A stretch of 27,648 bases of DNA from a virus. Below the pieces are notes generated by a model that did no database searches, was not told the origin of the DNA, and saw only the letters and a program-made list of their open reading frames with translations. Position 1 is the stretch's first letter. Each line of letters opens with the position of its first letter. The stretch spans positions 1-27,648 of IMG/VR virus record IMGVR_UViG_3300013126_000193. One strand, 5' to 3'. Shown here one piece after another: positions 4,408 to 25,717 of the stretch. The translations under genes were made by a program, and so were the position numbers.

Positions 4408-4935
4408 ATGTCAGGCTTTTTCAAGATCGAAATAACCGATGCTGACAAGCTGACCGCCGCCTTGAAGCGTTTCCCAGCAGAGACGCAAAAGGCGCTTGAA
4501 CAGGCGGGGCACGACAGCGCACGCCTGATACTTGAGGTGGAAGGTTTGCGGGCATATCCGCCAGCGACTGCGGCGAACTCGCCCGGACGCGTGCGGGAGG
4601 TGATCTTCGGCACAGGCAGGCGGGCAACTTTCAGGGTTGGGTATTATGTGCGCGGAAGAGGTGCATTCGTGCCGGTCAGGGGTGGCGAATATCGCTTCCT
4701 GGCCAACTCGGAGCGCTATGGGTCGCAGTGGTACACACGCAAGATCAGCGGCGGGGTTGAGATCGGCAACCGGGCCTCGTATGCTCAGTATCTCGCAGGC
4801 GACAATCAACCTGATTTTATGGCGGCGATTGGATGGCGCAAATTGTCAGAGGTGGCGGGTGAAAAGCTGCCAGAAATCACCGAACTGTACAATGACCGGA
4901 TAGGGCAGTTGTTGGCCCGGCTGGATTTGAATTGA
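4408..4935 (+). CDS. HK97 gp10-like minor neck/tail protein
   Basis: A 175-residue protein with FFKIEITDADKLTAALKRF at its start, a helical segment with RLILEVEGLRAYPP, and a C-terminal region with YAQYLAGDNQPDFMAAIGW. This is the pattern of HK97 gp10-like proteins, where the conserved motif around the tyrosine precedes a Q/N-P-x-F element. In HK97-like phages they act at the head-tail or tail-completion interface. ATG 4408 is chosen because GGGAGG at 4398-4403 sits just upstream; an in-frame ATG at 4303 lies deep inside the previous gene and is rejected. Its place before the capsid gene, rather than among the connectors, is uncommon. The last codons overlap the -35 element of the capsid promoter. 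Confidence 0.75.
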   Translation: MSGFFKIEITDADKLTAALKRFPAETQKALEQAGHDSARLILEVEGLRAYPPATAANSPGRVREVIFGTGRRATFRVGYYVRGRGAFVPVRGGEYRFLANSERYGSQWYTRKISGGVEIGNRASYAQYLAGDNQPDFMAAIGWRKLSEVAGEKLPEITELYNDRIGQLLARLDLN

Positions 4936-4960
4936 CATCGGGCCGAATATCCTGTACAAT
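4932..4960 (+). promoter_or_regulatory. Strong sigma70-type promoter upstream of capsid gene
   Basis: TTGACA at 4932-4937, a 17-nt spacer, then TACAAT at 4955-4960: a perfect -35 hexamer, optimal spacing, and a -10 with one mismatch from TATAAT. Expected transcription start is near 4967. The -35 begins on the final codons of the gp10-like gene. It would drive the leader at 4967-5080 and then the protease-capsid gene. Confidence 0.8.
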
Positions 4961-4966
4961 GTTCAT

Positions 4967-5080
4967 TAGTTGAATATTGGCTGACAGCCGCCCTCAGGTG
5001 AGGGAGCGAAACAGCTTAGCGTGACGATACGAAACACATCGGCGCAGTTTACCCGCAAGGGAGACTGCGCCTTTTTATTT
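4967..5080 (+). ncRNA. Structured capsid-gene leader RNA or small RNA (candidate)
   Basis: The segment between the promoter and the terminator would give a transcript of about 115 nt. It can fold: GGCT(4979-4982)/AGCC(4986-4989) competes with GCTG(4980-4983)/CAGC(5012-5015), and CCCTC(4991-4995)/GAGGG(5000-5004) forms a hairpin with an AGGT loop. Mutually exclusive pairings followed by an intrinsic terminator are the arrangement of an attenuator or riboswitch. A short stable RNA made from the promoter is an alternative. I do not match it to any known riboswitch class. The role is inferred from layout alone. Confidence 0.45.
5041..5080 (+). terminator. Intrinsic (rho-independent) terminator between promoter and capsid start
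   Basis: Stem GGCGCAGTTT (5041-5050) pairs with AGACTGCGCC (5062-5071, one G-U). After one bulged A it continues as CCC/GGG, capped by a GCAA tetraloop at 5055-5058. TTTTTATTT follows directly. It lies just 10 nt before the capsid start codon and next to its Shine-Dalgarno GAGGTG (5081-5086), so it must be partly read through or regulated. Confidence 0.8.
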
Positions 5081-5089
5081 GAGGTGAAC

Positions 5090-7051
5090 ATGCCTAATAA
5101 TGTACCGGAAGACCTGAAAGACAAATACGACAGCTGCGTTCAGCAGGTAATCGAGAGCGGCGAAAGTGAAGAGGCCGCATATCCAATTTGTTATATGTCA
5201 GTTGTCGAGGGTAAGAGCCTGGCGCACGCCAAAGCTTATTATTTCGAGAGCCTGAAAATTGGCGCACGAAACAGTGGGAACGATGCAAAGCGTCTCCAGG
5301 ATATCCACGATTTAGCCGTTGAGAATGGCGCAAAGTGTCACGACACTTACCCCGCCATGATGAGCCTGGAAGATGGTCTGGTAACGTTTGGCACAGCCGT
5401 CAAGGCCCTGGATAACGGCAGGGTTGGCGGATACCTTGTCAGATTCAGCACCGACAAAGACCCAGACCTTGCAGGTGATTTTTTCACCCCTGACACCGAC
5501 TTCGGCAACCACAAAACCGCCGATGTGTATTACAACCACGGACTTGATGCAACCCTGAAGCGGCGCAAAATCGGCAAGGTAGACCTGACACCTGATGACG
5601 TTGGCATCTGGGCCGAAGCGCAACTCGAACTCAGGGACGAATACGAGAAGGCGATTTACGACATGGCAAAAGCTGGCAAGTTGGGCTGGTCCAGCGGAAC
5701 AGCCTCGCACCTGATGGAGCGCAAGTCGGTTGGCAGCGCCCAAATGATAACCCGCTGGCCTCTCGGACTTGATGCCAGCCTTACACCGACACCCGCAGAA
5801 CCCAGAAACGGGGCGGTATCAATCAAAAGTTTACTTCCGGCAGAGGTGACAGGCGTCACGCTGGAAGATGACCCACAAGCTATCAAAACCACGAATGAGG
5901 TAAATATGGAACTCTCAGAAGAAAAATTAGCATCCATGCTTGAGGCGGCTGCAACCAAAGCCGTTCAGGCTGCACAGCCTCCGATCAAATCGGCTGGCTT
6001 TGCCACTGGTGCGGCCGAGGTTGTAAGAGACGAAGCCGATCAGCCGTTCAAGTCCTTTGGTCATTACATGCAGGCAGTCGCCCGCGCCGCAAACGGCAGC
6101 GAAGATGTGCGCTTGAAACCGATGAAAGCCTCCGGTCTGAACGAAGCGACCCCTTCACAGGGTGGGTATTTGGTGTATCCTCAGTACGTCAATCAGATCG
6201 TGAACAAGATGTATGCCACTTCCGGCATCCTGAACGCCGTGCGCTGGTTTGACCTCGGCCCGAACTCCAATCGCCTGATTATTCCGGCAGTCGATGAAAC
6301 CTCCCGCGTGGATGGCTCCCGCCAGGGTGGCGTCTTATCCTACTGGATGGCCGAAGCCGCAACCAAAACCGCCAGCAAGCCCAAGTTCCGCCAGATGGAA
6401 ATCATCGCTCACAAAGAAGCGGCACTGGTTTACTCGTCCGATGAACTCCTACAGGACGCAACCGCCCTCGAAGGTTATCTCAATCAGGCTGTGGCTGATG
6501 AACTGCGCTTCCAGGCTGAGGCCGCAATCTTCCGCGGCGATGGCGTTGGCAAGCCTCTGGGATGGATCAACTCGCCCTCTCTGGTGACTATCACCCGCGA
6601 CACCGGCAGCAAAATCCTTGCCGCTGATGTAATCGGCATGTGGACACGCCTCTGGCCGTCCTGCCATGCGAATGCAGTCTGGTACATCTCGCCCGAAGCG
6701 TCTGCACAGCTTTACCAGATGTATCTGACCAGCTCTCTGGCGTTCCCCTTCTACACCATCGATCAGGCTGGCGTTACCCGCATGTTTGGCCGTCCGGTTA
6801 TCGTGACTGAGTACGCCTCGGCCCTGAACACCACCGGCGATATCATGCTGGTTGATCCCACTCAGTATTTTGCAGTCCGCAAGGGCGGCGTTGAAGCGGC
6901 ATCGAGCATCCACGTTCAATTCGTGACTGACGAAACCGCTTACCGGTTTGTCTGGCGGGTCGGCGGGCAGTCCAGCTGGTCGTCTCCTGTGACACCCTAC
7001 AAGGGCAGCTCTACCCTGTCCGACATTGTTGTTCTCTCTTCAGCTACCTAA
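5090..7051 (+). CDS. Fused prohead protease / scaffold / HK97-type major capsid protein
   Basis: A single 653-residue frame combining two head proteins. Residues 10-40 carry a phage motif with spaced cysteines (CVQQVIESGESEEAAYPIC). Residues 57-83 carry GARNSGNDAKRLQDIHDLAV. Residues 110-240 look like an HK97-family prohead protease, with candidate catalytic His150 (YYNHG) and Ser201/Ser202 (SSGTAS). Residues 272-345 are the helical scaffold-like delta region. Residues 350-653 are an HK97-fold capsid protein (GGYLVYPQYVNQIVNKM, RGDGVGKPLGW). ATG 5090 is chosen for its GAGGTG Shine-Dalgarno at 5081-5086; an in-frame GTG at 5021 lacks one and would place the terminator in coding sequence. The protease would cleave the scaffold region during maturation. 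A second start at 5906 could yield capsid protein alone. Confidence 0.9.
   Translation: MPNNVPEDLKDKYDSCVQQVIESGESEEAAYPICYMSVVEGKSLAHAKAYYFESLKIGARNSGNDAKRLQDIHDLAVENGAKCHDTYPAMMSLEDGLVTFGTAVKALDNGRVGGYLVRFSTDKDPDLAGDFFTPDTDFGNHKTADVYYNHGLDATLKRRKIGKVDLTPDDVGIWAEAQLELRDEYEKAIYDMAKAGKLGWSSGTASHLMERKSVGSAQMITRWPLGLDASLTPTPAEPRNGAVSIKSLLPAEVTGVTLEDDPQAIKTTNEVNMELSEEKLASMLEAAATKAVQAAQPPIKSAGFATGAAEVVRDEADQPFKSFGHYMQAVARAANGSEDVRLKPMKASGLNEATPSQGGYLVYPQYVNQIVNKMYATSGILNAVRWFDLGPNSNRLIIPAVDETSRVDGSRQGGVLSYWMAEAATKTASKPKFRQMEIIAHKEAALVYSSDELLQDATALEGYLNQAVADELRFQAEAAIFRGDGVGKPLGWINSPSLVTITRDTGSKILAADVIGMWTRLWPSCHANAVWYISPEASAQLYQMYLTSSLAFPFYTIDQAGVTRMFGRPVIVTEYASALNTTGDIMLVDPTQYFAVRKGGVEAASSIHVQFVTDETAYRFVWRVGGQSSWSSPVTPYKGSSTLSDIVVLSSAT
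5897..5908 (+). promoter_or_regulatory. Internal ribosome binding site and start for stand-alone major capsid protein
   Basis: GAGGT at 5897-5901 lies five nt before an in-frame ATG at 5906-5908, exactly where the scaffold/capsid part of the fusion begins (Met273, MELSEEKLASML). Initiation here would yield a 381-residue protein, close to the usual length of HK97-type capsid proteins. This would supply excess capsid subunits over protease from one mRNA. Confidence 0.6.
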
Positions 7052-7547: not shown

Positions 7548-7566
7548 GCGACAGTAGGTAGGTAAT

Positions 7567-7594
7567 GGGGAGGTGGGTAAATGCCCATCTCCCC
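7567..7594 (+). other. Strong hairpin after the decoration gene
   Basis: GGGGAGGTGGG (7567-7577) pairs with CCCATCTCCCC (7584-7594) through 11 bp including one G-U, with a six-nt loop. No T-tract follows, so it is not a standard terminator. It could block RNA decay, mark mRNA processing or reduce read-through from the capsid genes into weaker downstream genes. It also disfavours an in-frame start at 7565. Confidence 0.7.
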
Positions 7595-7624
7595 AAAGCT
7601 GGCCTTGTCGAGAAAGAAACTACT

Positions 7625-8761
7625 ATGAAAACTGTCGCCATCGTAGGAAGTCACCCAGCAACCCGCAATAATGCGCCCTGGGACAATCAATCAATAGATA
7701 TCTGGGTATTCAACGAGGCTGCGAACGAAGCCTGGGTAAAGCGCTGGGACGCTTGTTTCCAGATGCACAAACCTGTTATCTACTCTAACCCGAATAATCG
7801 GACTGACCCCCATCATTGGGATTGGTTACAGCGTGACCACGGCAAGGCAATTTACATGCAGGCCGCAGATCCGCTTGTGCCAGGCTCAAAGACTTATCCC
7901 CTCGACCTGATTTCTCGCCGTTTCCTGAACAAGTTCACCCGTGGAGACGAGAAGCGCAAATTACAGTACTTCACTAACTCCATCTCATACGCCATCGCCC
8001 TGGCCATCTTTCTCGGATATGAGCGCATTCTGCTCTATGGGGCAGAGATGCAATCAAATACAGAATATTCTTACCAGCGTGATAACGTGGCGTTTTGGGT
8101 GGGCGTTGCGGCAGGCTACGGCGTGAGTGTCGAGATACACTCAGCATTCAACTTATTCGATCAGCCGATGTATGGCTATAATGGCGACCTGACCTACACC
8201 GCAAAGATGTTTGCGGACATGGCAGACCAGTATCGGGAAAAACTGACTGAGGCGCAGGCGAACCTGACCAAAGCGAACGAAGCACTAAACGGCATTGATG
8301 CCACAAATACGGAATTGATGCAGACCTTGATGAAGGCGGCATTCGATGCCAATGCCGAACTTGGGCAGATTGAGGGCGCTATCACTCAACTTGATGCTTA
8401 CGTGAAAAAGTGCGAGGACATGGCGAACCGAGGCGGCGAAGCGCTCATCAGCCGGCAGGAATTTGAGTATAACGCCGCTGTCGGTAATAATGCCTTCAGC
8501 GAGCATAAAAGCAATATTGACCGGATAGATGGGCAGTTGTCTTACCTTTACGGCGTCTTTATCACGACAAAAGACCAGAGGGCCATGATGAACTTTGCGC
8601 AGTTGTCCGCAAGCGAGCATAAGCTGGCGCAGGCGATGGGGCGCTCATATGGTCAGGCGGTGGTCAATACCGAATTGATGATTGACGCAGACAAGCGGCT
8701 GAGAGCAGCAGGCGGCGCAAAGTCGTTCGAGGCTCAAAAAGCACAAATGGCGGTAGCATGA
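7625..8761 (+). CDS. Rossmann-like protein (GT42/DUF115-like look) with helical C-terminus
   Basis: A 378-residue protein. The first 190 or so residues begin with the nucleotide-binding-like strand MKTVAIVGSHPATR and later carry SISYAIALAIFLGYERILLYG followed by EYSYQRDNVAFWVG. This order resembles GT42 sialyltransferases and DUF115-type proteins (N-terminal IxGxxPS strand, then an A-x-A-x-x-L-G-Y helix leading into a glycine strand). The similarity was judged by eye. The last 180 residues are helical and charged (YREKLTEAQANLTKANEAL), likely coiled coil. ATG 7625 is chosen because the conserved strand begins there; the in-frame ATG 7565 sits against a strong hairpin. It lies between capsid and connector genes, so virion or host-glycan modification is possible but unproven. 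Confidence 0.6.
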   Translation: MKTVAIVGSHPATRNNAPWDNQSIDIWVFNEAANEAWVKRWDACFQMHKPVIYSNPNNRTDPHHWDWLQRDHGKAIYMQAADPLVPGSKTYPLDLISRRFLNKFTRGDEKRKLQYFTNSISYAIALAIFLGYERILLYGAEMQSNTEYSYQRDNVAFWVGVAAGYGVSVEIHSAFNLFDQPMYGYNGDLTYTAKMFADMADQYREKLTEAQANLTKANEALNGIDATNTELMQTLMKAAFDANAELGQIEGAITQLDAYVKKCEDMANRGGEALISRQEFEYNAAVGNNAFSEHKSNIDRIDGQLSYLYGVFITTKDQRAMMNFAQLSASEHKLAQAMGRSYGQAVVNTELMIDADKRLRAAGGAKSFEAQKAQMAVA

Positions 8762-21498: not shown

Positions 21499-21873
21499 AT
21501 GAACGCTTTGGAATTACTCGAACAACTGGCAAATGTAGAAGCACAAGCTGCTATTATCAACATTCACTTTGACGACCTGCGCAAGAATATCTTGACCCCT
21601 GAAATCCAGGCAGAACTGGCAGAGATCGAAGCAGAGCGGGCCGAAACGATGAAATCAGTCGCCGCTGGCATCGAAACCTTGCGCGAACAAATCAAGGCCG
21701 CCGTCATCGCCAATGGCGCAACGGTCAAAGGCTCTATGTTCCAGGCGGTCTATGTAAAAGGCCGCGAAAGTTGGGACACGAAAGCGCTTGACGGATACGC
21801 CGCCGCTCACCCTGAGATTATGCCATTCAAGCAGATTGGAAGCCCGTCTGTGACTATTCGGGGGACGAAATGA
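21499..21873 (+). CDS. Gp157-like or related small phage protein (124 aa)
   Basis: ATG 21499 follows AGGAGA (21488-21493). The 124-residue protein has a helical N-terminal half (LLEQLANVEAQAAIINIHFD; ELAEIEAERAETMKSV). It ends with QAVYVKGRESWDTKALDGYA and a C-terminal PEIMPFKQIGSPSVTIR. A helical region plus this tail is reminiscent of phage Gp157-like proteins and other small proteins near recT genes. No function is established for it here. The stop TGA 21871-21873 overlaps the next ATG (ATGA). Confidence 0.68.
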   Translation: MNALELLEQLANVEAQAAIINIHFDDLRKNILTPEIQAELAEIEAERAETMKSVAAGIETLREQIKAAVIANGATVKGSMFQAVYVKGRESWDTKALDGYAAAHPEIMPFKQIGSPSVTIRGTK

Positions 21874-22535
21874 AACTGTACAAGGTACTGGACAATAATA
21901 AATCATGCTCAGGAGGATCGTTCGATTGGACGGATTATCTGCCCGATGGAGACAACCCTGGCAAATGGACGCCTAACCGTGATGCAGATTTATGCTCCTC
22001 CGGATGGCACGGAACGAATGCTAAACATATTATCGAATTTTTGGACGGAAACCAATTATTCGAGGTCGAAGCGCTAAACGAAGTTTGGGACGATGAAACC
22101 AAAAAGTTTACGTCTAATACAATGCGATTGGTGCGCAAGATTGACGCTTATAACGACAAAACATTACGCCTGTTTTCGGTCTGGTGCGCCAGACAGGTGC
22201 AGCACTTGATGACAGACGAGCGCAGTATCGAAGCTCTAGATATAGCCGAGCGCTACGCAAATGGAAATGCCACCTATGAAGAATTGGCGGCCGCATGGGA
22301 CGCCGCACGGGCGGCCGCACGGGACGCCGCAAGGGACGCCGCAAGGGACGCCGCATGGGCCTCCGCAAGGGACGCCGCAAAGGACGCCGCATGGGCCGCC
22401 GCATGGGCCGCCGCACGGGACGCCGCAAGGGACGCACGGGCGGCCGCACGGGACGCCGCATGGGCCGCCGCATGGGCCGCCGCATGGGCCGCACAGGCCA
22501 ATAAAATGATTGAGATGCTAGGAATTGGAGAATAG
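21870..22535 (+). CDS. DUF7666-like N-terminal domain with Ala-rich tandem-repeat helix
   Basis: The 221-residue product starts with MKLYKVLDNNKSCSGGSFDW, and has GKWTPNRDADLCSSGWHGTN and HIIEFLDGNQLFEVEA. This is similar in layout to DUF7666-type domains, whose function is unknown. A helical linker with WCARQVQHLMTDERSIEALD follows. From about residue 140 it becomes a repeat of Ala-Ala-[Arg/Trp]-[Asp/Ala], encoded by 12-bp units, making a continuous helix with Trp/Arg and Asp spaced every four residues. It ends with a non-repeat helix (ANKMIEMLGIGE). The start overlaps the previous stop. No nuclease or enzyme motif is visible. Confidence 0.68.
   Translation: MKLYKVLDNNKSCSGGSFDWTDYLPDGDNPGKWTPNRDADLCSSGWHGTNAKHIIEFLDGNQLFEVEALNEVWDDETKKFTSNTMRLVRKIDAYNDKTLRLFSVWCARQVQHLMTDERSIEALDIAERYANGNATYEELAAAWDAARAAARDAARDAARDAAWASARDAAKDAAWAAAWAAARDAARDARAAARDAAWAAAWAAAWAAQANKMIEMLGIGE
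22284..22497 (+). repeat. 12-bp tandem repeats (GACGCCGCAHGG-type)
   Basis: About seventeen degenerate copies of a 12-bp unit close to GACGCCGCANGG or GCCGCCGCATGG, coding for D-A-A-R or A-A-A-W quartets. One unit near 22433-22441 is shortened to nine bases (D-A-R), keeping the frame. Variation of Arg (AGG/CGG) and Trp (TGG) by single bases suggests spread by slippage with later point change. The repeat also produces long meaningless open frames on the other strand. Confidence 0.85.
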
Positions 22536-23242: not shown

Positions 23243-25717
23243 ATGGATTATCAAGACTTTTTAGAGAATAAAATTATGGTCGTGAAAGACGCAGGCTTCG
23301 AGATCGAAGAGGGTGACTTTACACCAGGCGTATTATTTCCACACACAAAAGACGCCGTTCGATGGGCTTGCAGGTTAGGCCGGGCGCTGATTGCGATGTC
23401 TTTTGGTCTAGCAAAAACCCGGACGCAGATCGAGATCGCAAAACAGATCGTAAATAATAACCCTGGGCGAAGCTTTCTGATTGTTTGTCCTCTCGGGGTC
23501 AAGCACCAATTTCAAGAAGAGGATGGCCCGGCCCTGGGTACACGCTGGCAATATGTCAGGACAGACGAAGAGATTACGGCGGCTAATTCGCCTTTCCTGA
23601 TTACAAATTATGAGCGCGTCCGAGACGGTGACATTCATCCTGTTTTGCACCCGATCATAGGTGTTTCACTGGATGAGGGCAGCGTTATCCGTTCGCTAGG
23701 GTCAAAGACGTATGACGTATTCACCGATGCTTTCGAGCATTTACCCTACAGATTCGTAGCAACTGCCACACCTAGCCCGAATGACTATAAGGAGTTGATC
23801 TATTATGCTGAGTTTTTAGGCATTATGGATCATGGCCAGGCTCTTACCCGATTTTTCAAACGTGATACAGAACGTGCCGGGCATCTTACCCTGCACCAGC
23901 AGCATGAAAAGACATTCTGGCTATGGGTCGCATCCTGGGCGCTATTCCTCTTCACGCCGGGAGACCTGGGGTACTCCGATGAAGGTTACGTTTTGCCGCC
24001 TCTCCATGTCAATTGGGTCAAGGTTCAAGTCGATCAAACCAGAGCATGGAAACAAACAGACAAATTCGGGCAGCATCGTTTGATTTTAGACGCTGCCGCC
24101 GGTGTATCGGAGGCGTCCGCCGAAAAGCGGGAAACACTTTCCGCACGTGTCGCAGCGATGAAGGAAATTATCGACCAACGCCCAACCGATCATTGGCTTA
24201 TCTGGCATACCCTAGAAGCCGAACGCCGGGCGATTGAAGACGCAGTACCGGAAAGTCTATCAGTCTACGGTTCGCAGGATCTTGAGCTGCGTGAACAACG
24301 TATTCTTGGGTTTGTGCATGGAGACGTGCAAATTCTGGCGACAAAACCGGAGATTGCAGGATCCGGTTGCAACTTCCAGCGACATTGTCATCTAAATATC
24401 TTTTTAGGAGTTGATTACAAATTTCAAGACTTTATCCAGGCTGTCCACCGCACCTATCGTTTTCAGCAGAACAAAGAAGTCGAGATATTTGTCATATATG
24501 CCGAAAGTGAACAGTCGGTGATTGACGTGCTAAAACGCAAATGGCAGCAACATAACGAACTACTGCAAAACATGAGGGACATCATCAAGCGCTACGGGAT
24601 GTCTCACGAAGCGATGAAGAAAGACCTGAAAAGGAGTATTGGAATTATGCGCACTGAGATCAAAGGTAAATTATTTACGTTCGTCAATAATGATTGTGTC
24701 GCCGAAATAAAAAATCTTGACACAAACAGCGTAGGGCTTATTCATACGTCAATCCCATTTGGTAACCATTACAGCTACACGACCAGCGCCGAAGACTTCG
24801 GACATAATCCGTCTGATGCAGACTTCTGGGTACAGATGGATTATCTCATTCCTGATTTATTCCGAGTGTTGAAGCCGGGACGTGTCGCCGCTATCCATGT
24901 CAAGGATCGCATTCTTTACGGTCACCAGACAAAAAGCGGCTTCATGGAGGTATCTGAGTTCAGCGATGATTGCGTCAAAGCATTCCGAAAACACGGTTTT
25001 ATGTTTGAGGGTCGCCGAACAATTGTTACTGACGTTGTCCGGGAGAATGCGTCTACATATCGCCTGGGTTATACCGAGATGACTAGGGACGCCTCAAAGA
25101 TGGGCAGCGGATTACCTGAGTATTTGCTATGTTTCCGCAAGCCGCCGTCAAGCCCGGATACCGCCAGGGCGGACGAGCCTATCGTGAAATCGAAAGACGA
25201 TTACAGCCGGGGCCGCTGGCAGTATGATGCTCACGCATTCTGGCGCTCTAATGGCGACCGGCCGTTAATGCCAGATGAACTTTACAGCTACGCTGATCAG
25301 GTCTCCGCCGCTGAAGAGCTTGACCGCAAAGACCGTCTTTCAAGCAGTTTTTTTATGCACCCGCCAAAGTCTCCGACTGATTGGGTCTGGGATGATATCG
25401 TTTCGATGCGGACGCTGAACTCTGAGCAAAGCCGAAGTCGTGAACAGAATCATATCTGCCCGCTGCCTTTCGATATCGTTGAGCGGTCAATCCGTTTGTA
25501 CTCCAATCCTGGCGATCTTGTCCTTGACCCATTCGGCGGTATCGGCACCGTCCCCTATATGTCAATCAAGATGGGGCGAAAGGCTTACGGGGTCGAGCTC
25601 AAACCGGAATACTTCCAGTGCGCCGTGAAATACTGCCAAAATATGGAGCGCGAAGCCCTCGCACCAACACTATTTGATTTTTTGCAGGCATCTCAACCAT
25701 CAGCCGTTGAAAGCTAA
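23243..25717 (+). CDS. Fused SF2-type helicase / beta-class DNA methyltransferase
   Basis: An 824-residue protein. Residues 30-430 look like an SNF2-type SF2 helicase: Walker A-like FGLAKT (54-59, with Ala where GKT-type loops have Gly), LDEG (143-146), TATP (174-177), and QAVHRTYRFQQ (399-409, motif VI). Residues 469-824 look like an N4/N6 amino-methyltransferase of the beta class: catalytic motif TSIPFG (502-507, Ile where Pro is usual) and AdoMet motif DPFGGIGT (762-769) followed by a GVELKPEY segment. It could methylate phage DNA against host restriction, with the helicase part translocating DNA. No restriction enzyme is nearby. Start ATG 23243 with GGAGAT upstream. An in-frame start with AAAAGGAG at 24647 could yield methyltransferase alone. 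Confidence 0.85.
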   Translation: MDYQDFLENKIMVVKDAGFEIEEGDFTPGVLFPHTKDAVRWACRLGRALIAMSFGLAKTRTQIEIAKQIVNNNPGRSFLIVCPLGVKHQFQEEDGPALGTRWQYVRTDEEITAANSPFLITNYERVRDGDIHPVLHPIIGVSLDEGSVIRSLGSKTYDVFTDAFEHLPYRFVATATPSPNDYKELIYYAEFLGIMDHGQALTRFFKRDTERAGHLTLHQQHEKTFWLWVASWALFLFTPGDLGYSDEGYVLPPLHVNWVKVQVDQTRAWKQTDKFGQHRLILDAAAGVSEASAEKRETLSARVAAMKEIIDQRPTDHWLIWHTLEAERRAIEDAVPESLSVYGSQDLELREQRILGFVHGDVQILATKPEIAGSGCNFQRHCHLNIFLGVDYKFQDFIQAVHRTYRFQQNKEVEIFVIYAESEQSVIDVLKRKWQQHNELLQNMRDIIKRYGMSHEAMKKDLKRSIGIMRTEIKGKLFTFVNNDCVAEIKNLDTNSVGLIHTSIPFGNHYSYTTSAEDFGHNPSDADFWVQMDYLIPDLFRVLKPGRVAAIHVKDRILYGHQTKSGFMEVSEFSDDCVKAFRKHGFMFEGRRTIVTDVVRENASTYRLGYTEMTRDASKMGSGLPEYLLCFRKPPSSPDTARADEPIVKSKDDYSRGRWQYDAHAFWRSNGDRPLMPDELYSYADQVSAAEELDRKDRLSSSFFMHPPKSPTDWVWDDIVSMRTLNSEQSRSREQNHICPLPFDIVERSIRLYSNPGDLVLDPFGGIGTVPYMSIKMGRKAYGVELKPEYFQCAVKYCQNMEREALAPTLFDFLQASQPSAVES
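24629..24649 (+). promoter_or_regulatory. Internal ribosome binding site and in-frame ATG at helicase/methyltransferase junction
   Basis: AAAAGGAG (24629-24636) precedes an in-frame ATG (24647-24649, Met469) by ten nt, at the point where the helicase homology ends and the methyltransferase begins (MRTEIKGKLFTFVNND). Initiation here would give a 356-residue methyltransferase. The spacing is a little long. Confidence 0.5.

Follow-up and report, generated by a model that had tools for sequence, protein, structure and literature searches.

A conserved promoter, leader and terminator before phage capsid genes as a candidate nut/put-like late-operon leader carrying a host rRNA-type signal

Why should a phage place a complete intrinsic terminator between a strong promoter and the capsid gene behind it? 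We addressed this question for a virus contig of 27,648 bases (hereafter, the window), in which an earlier note, made from the letters alone, had pointed to a promoter, a foldable leader and a terminator packed before the capsid start codon. The promoter is of the sigma-70 type (4932-4960, + strand), with -35 TTGACA at 4932-4937, a spacer of 17 nt and -10 TACAAT at 4955-4960, and matches the consensus at 11 of 12 positions; transcription would start at approximately 4966-4968. A leader of about 114 nt lies between promoter and terminator. The gene that follows (5090-7051, + strand) encodes a prohead protease-major capsid fusion (Phage_capsid PF05065, E 3e-37; Peptidase_S78, E 5e-4, slightly under the cut-off), and we propose that it is the first gene of an operon under control of the leader. 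Upstream are the genes for terminase, portal and a Mu F-like protein, and a small gene of uncharacterised product that ends at 4935.

Several other features of the window were recorded. Shortly downstream of the capsid gene, 7565-8761 encodes a 398-aa protein with no Pfam match, whose counterparts, judged by appearance, occur in two related loci (L002, 3891-4988; L035, from about 5722). At 23243-25717, a SNF2-type helicase domain and an N6/N4 DNA methylase domain are joined in one chain of 824 aa. An alanine-rich repeat tail (AARDAA-type) is present at 21870-22535, where long open frames overlap on both strands, probably as an effect of the repeat.

The terminator (5041-5080, + strand) consists of a hairpin at 5041-5071 (GGCGCAGTTTACCCGCAAGGGAGACTGCGCC, 13 pairs) and the U-tract TTTTTATTT at 5072-5080. 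Its fold has an energy of -26.8 kcal/mol and a z-score of -5.2 over a 58-nt stretch, no shuffled sequence being equally good, and on the window's + strand it ranks first among compact hairpins followed by a long U-tract. An automated terminator scan did not flag the hairpin at 5041-5071. The ribosome-binding site GAGGTGA (5081-5087, + strand) fills most of the space before the ATG at 5090, which lies 9 nt from the end of the U-tract and 18 nt from the hairpin. As a whole, 4961-5095 folds with a z-score of -4.2. The leader without its terminator (4967-5040) has an ordinary single-sequence energy (z -0.75), and support for its structure is therefore comparative. Promoter, leader and terminator at 4932-5090, as described in the earlier note, were confirmed as genuine features and not chance. 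The note's expectation of controlled read-through was also right in spirit. A strong promoter separated from the gene it drives by a terminator is sensible only with conditional or partial read-through.

Dozens of related phages have kept this arrangement. Iterated capsid-protein searches, one of which reported about 380 capsid relatives, yielded about 120 virus loci and 11 loci in metagenome-assembled genomes (MAGs), several of the latter labelled Chloroflexi, Anaerolineae or Anaerolineales, and the recurrent order upstream of the capsid gene was promoter, leader, strong hairpin with U-tract, ribosome-binding site and ATG. Under a fixed rule (a hairpin immediately upstream of the start, at -15 kcal/mol or better), terminator-like hairpins preceded 47 of 70 capsid genes versus 32 of 396 other genes in the same loci (Fisher p 4e-26), the loci being mutually related and the counts thus not fully independent events. 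About a quarter of the capsid homologues had no terminator. We curated 55 leaders, selected by the presence of a terminator, and in 54 of them the hairpin-to-ATG gap was 15-31 nt. Promoter scores in these 55 leaders exceeded those of shuffled sequences (p 1.4e-10), and the 85 nt upstream of the terminator had a more stable fold than their shuffled counterparts (mean z -1.0, p 2e-7). One locus (L083) has an extra small gene between the element and the capsid gene.

Late mRNAs frequently carry stabilising 5' hairpins, and very long hairpins were found in some relatives (L046 and L118). These observations would suit a simpler reading without regulated antitermination, in which the hairpin merely blocks transcription from upstream, or acts as an RNase III or mRNA-stability element through which the capsid mRNA acquires a stable 5' end. 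However, a U-tract follows the hairpin in most relatives, and the promoter precedes the hairpin, so that an insulator would also stop transcription from the capsid promoter. Moreover, covarying hairpins and an rRNA operon (rrn)-like motif in the leader are left unexplained. We regard this reading as very unlikely.

Comparison of leaders revealed a shared structure. Leaders of all subgroups together gave no usable MAFFT alignment, and a DNA similarity search of phage records and a search with the exact leader pattern returned no match. Nine leaders could be aligned (L011, L053, L056, L067, L068, L057, L014, L064 and L088; the L011-like subgroup), and they support the order P1 enclosing P2, then P3, then the terminator. 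The covariation check that the earlier note had called for gave compensatory changes: 16 of 29 pairs changed on both sides, and the covariation score was 0.594, whereas shuffles scored 0.212 +/- 0.025 and no slid structure exceeded 0.119. A 16-row alignment, itself fitted to the structure, showed two-sided changes in 28 of 29 pairs. In the window, the P1 helix (4979-4983 with 5012-5016, + strand) encloses the P2 hairpin CCCTC-AGGT-GAGGG (4991-5004), an assignment based on the sequence, the relatives' covariation and a covariance model match. A weak candidate P3 (CGAT 5025-5028 with ATCG 5038-5041, + strand) may be the counterpart of the strong P3 of the relatives; P3 covaries in the relatives, and the covariance model does not align that of the window.

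Covariance models placed these leaders at a single kind of site. Model R1, built from the nine-leader alignment, had 16 matches at E <=10 in 526 kb, each immediately upstream of a capsid gene. For its widened version R2, all 15 matches (E <=10) in 474 kb were on the + strand and immediately upstream of a capsid gene, and 8 of the 15 were outside the training set. The window is among these 8; its match at 4953-5084 had an E-value of 0.12 in 474 kb and 1.5e-4 in its own 601 bases, E-values of these models (R3 included) being rough. A second leader subgroup, recognised by eye, carries an internal loop inside P1 with AGGAUA opposite GAAAAG (L019, 4834-4900; L123, 2771-2841; L083, 1064-1140; L069, 2861-2922; L065, 1811-1874). 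This loop is perhaps a protein-binding module. R3, a core model of the second subgroup, was weak, leaders accounting for 2 of its 8 new matches.

Do the leader helices compete with the terminator? Mutually exclusive pairings, and with them an attenuator, had been suggested for the window. The sequence permits alternative pairings, but neither of two such exchanges was enriched: complementarity of the leader to the 5' arm of the terminator showed no enrichment in 55 leaders (p 0.93), and pairing of the motif with the U-tract and ribosome-binding site, present in the window's minimum-energy fold, was rejected as not conserved in the same 55 leaders (p 0.97). Leaders of the L011-like subgroup can form a UGAC/GUCA pairing across P3 that would compete with the 5' arm of the terminator, and three of the four pairs are invariant (GAC/GUC). 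This competition would suit a classical attenuator or riboswitch, in which a ligand, a protein or the ribosome switches an alternative leader helix that sequesters the terminator's 5' arm, but the competing pairs do not covary. Nor did any Rfam riboswitch or leader family match the window or 16 related loci (Rfam 15, gathering threshold), in agreement with the earlier note, which knew of no riboswitch class that the element fits. Because leader-terminator pairing is not generally conserved, classical attenuation is unlikely outside this one subgroup, and as the general mechanism we consider it distinctly unlikely.

What most leaders do share is a motif at the 5' end of the transcript. It has the form A[AG]YYN[AG]ATA, which is rrn boxA/NusA-site-like, and occurred in 34 of 55 leaders versus 3.4 expected; the window's version is AGTTGAATA (4968-4976, + strand). 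Its best form, TAACAACTGAATAG, corresponds to what we take to be the NusA site of rRNA leaders. The RNA in the NusA co-crystal of Beuth et al. (2005), for which structure entries exist, is reportedly GAACUCAAUAG. NusA of M. tuberculosis binds boxC-like rrn leader RNA (PMC6614801). The hosts are probably Anaerolineae, as judged from MAG bins; other capsid matches lay in bins with different labels (Verrucomicrobiota, Lokiarchaeota, Burkholderiales and more), some of them probably misbinned.

Host rRNA leaders carry a related signal. In 16S loci from genomes ranking among the relatives of two Anaerolineae MAGs, most rrn leaders contained GNACCUURACAAYUGAADAGUGA about 75-155 nt upstream of 16S. 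The first part of this sequence fits the boxA consensus GYTCTTTAANA, a gammaproteobacterial consensus, at most positions (PMC5725501). An apparent second motif copy (e.g., GATCATTGACAACTGAGTAACC) was also seen about 250-290 nt upstream of 16S in L146, L154, L163 and other loci. When a matrix built from host sites only was applied to 517 kb of phage DNA, the four top matches were exact, all were TAACAACTGAATAG and all were in capsid leaders, which make up about 1.5% of positions. The best host-matrix score per leader exceeded that of shuffles (55 leaders, p 3e-5), with 16 leaders individually significant. Motif counts in whole host MAGs showed no excess over the backward control. Phage leaders match the 3' end of boxA (YAACA) and the adjacent NusA-type segment, and the 5' half, the NusB/S10 site, is absent. 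An additional hairpin separates the -10 element from the motif in four leaders (L048, L051, L103 and L112), which ties the motif to the RNA and not to promoter spacing. The window's own copy is a weak match to the host matrix, not significant alone (p 0.6), and the membership of the window rests on architecture, location and model match.

The same arrangement was found before other late operons. A protein-blind scan of all virus contigs with TATAAT-N4-16-ACAACTGAATAG returned 41 stretches, several of which contained leader, terminator and ribosome-binding site followed by a late gene of an unrelated family. These genes encode a ClpP-type head protease with capsid (L196, L206, L215, L225 and L233), a scaffold with another capsid family (L212 and L227), a third head protein (L208) and protease/structural proteins (L228), or belong to a terminase operon (L203) or a lysis cassette ahead of terminase (L224). 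Terminator and gene were both present in 8 of 30 non-redundant stretches versus 0 of 39 in a reversed-motif control, whose stretches were somewhat more AT-rich (p 7e-4). A scan with a second -10 variant (TAAAAT) found terminator and gene in L016 only. Seven stretches (L195, L197, L200, L210, L214, L220 and L232) are cyanobacterial-looking sequences inside virus contigs, in which TTGACAACTGAATAG has a promoter on one side and a tRNA-like sequence, followed by a porin-like gene, on the other.

Could the element be a small RNA gene, as the earlier note had also considered? Such a gene would produce an abundant, trans-acting RNA of about 114 nt ending at 5080, either a decoy that titrates NusA or other Nus factors from host rRNA transcription or a regulator of other phage mRNAs, with the capsid expressed by leakage or from other promoters. 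The element's own promoter and strong terminator and its conserved structure would fit, and the rrn-like motif would suit a decoy. On the other hand, the narrow gap found in 54 of 55 curated leaders links the terminator closely to the start codon, which makes a free-standing small RNA less likely, and in different phages the element heads late operons and keeps the same orientation, which such an RNA would not need. On balance, this alternative is unlikely.

The reading that we favour, with moderate confidence, is that 4932-5090 is a cis-acting, nut/put-like late-operon leader on which Nus factors, perhaps together with a phage protein, allow polymerase to pass the terminator. A host Nus-type signal combined with phage-variable hairpins follows the logic of nut or put, and processive antitermination is therefore favoured. 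Host RNA polymerase would start at the strong promoter and transcribe first the 5' signal, which resembles the site for antitermination in host rRNA operons (the 3' half of boxA with an adjacent NusA-type site), and then hairpins that vary from phage to phage. Unmodified polymerase, including polymerase arriving from the terminase and portal genes, would be stopped at the terminator, which lies 15-31 nt ahead of the start codon. Nus factors loaded on the signal would let polymerase pass, and the capsid operon would be expressed. The architecture, its conservation, the subgroup covariation, the match to the host rrn motif and the recurrence at late operons can be read from the sequences; from them we infer that Nus factors are loaded and that polymerase reads through, as well as the timing and the involvement of any phage factor. 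The Nus factors of E. coli by themselves counteract Rho, whereas lambda N is required for resistance to intrinsic terminators (PMC5725501). An additional factor or RNA effect would thus be needed, and a further factor beyond the Nus factors is likely. The help could come from a putative phage protein reading the variable hairpins, as lambda N reads boxB, or from RNA alone, as in HK022 put.

More tentatively, and at slightly less than an even chance, these leaders may represent a widespread class of late-operon switch centred on Anaerolineae phages. In this class, a leader with a host rrn signal and phage-specific hairpins would license the crossing of an intrinsic terminator directly upstream of head, terminase or lysis genes, and late timing would be RNA-borne and Nus-dependent, not set by a Q-type DNA-bound factor. 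The type of control is known; judged against open-licence papers, what appears to be new is that these phages employ it ahead of late operons and with a host rrn-like signal. Beyond the earlier note, the present analysis adds a motif that resembles rRNA antitermination signals and is also present in host rRNA leaders, and the occurrence of the arrangement before other late operons. Should the proposal hold, a host rRNA antitermination signal would set the timing of capsid production in phages that infect a large, little-studied bacterial phylum, and the reach of RNA-borne, Nus-type antitermination would extend beyond early phage genes to late ones. A sequence signature would also become available for locating late operons in metagenomic phages, and the action of Nus factors on intrinsic terminators outside gammaproteobacteria could be studied with a natural terminator-plus-licence module.

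Several known systems resemble this element in part. Lambda nut (boxA-boxB, with N and Nus factors) is likewise a promoter-proximal RNA signal ahead of terminators, in which a host Nus-factor site is followed by a phage-variable hairpin; the P1/P2 and P3 hairpins after the leader motif, which covary in the L011-like subgroup, would be the boxB-like feature. However, nut serves early operons and the present element precedes head, terminase or lysis operons, and the 5' half of boxA is missing from the present leaders. To our knowledge, an rrn-like motif is not part of HK022 put. Put RNA (PMC9378689) similarly forms hairpins near the transcript 5' end, ahead of a terminator within a phage operon, but it serves early genes and is factor-independent.

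The lambda Q system (pR'-tR') offers the same layout of late promoter, short leader and terminator before a late operon, with read-through giving the timing. Q binds promoter DNA, whereas the conserved elements described here look RNA-borne, as indicated by covarying helices and by hairpin insertions before the motif; the variable motif-to-promoter distance argues against a DNA-fixed (Q/qut-like) element. Bacterial rrn antitermination leaders (boxA/boxC, Nus factors) share URACAAYUGAAUAG, which is common to phage leaders and Anaerolineae-related rrn leaders. Unlike these, the phage version lacks the boxA 5' half, has an intrinsic terminator right behind the motif and is followed by a protein operon. 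The rimP leader and other premature-terminator attenuators (PMC2965389) also have a 5'-UTR terminator close to the start codon and no clear antiterminator, and NusA has been proposed as the regulator. There, however, the conserved part is the terminator stem, whereas here it is the leader, placed before phage head genes.
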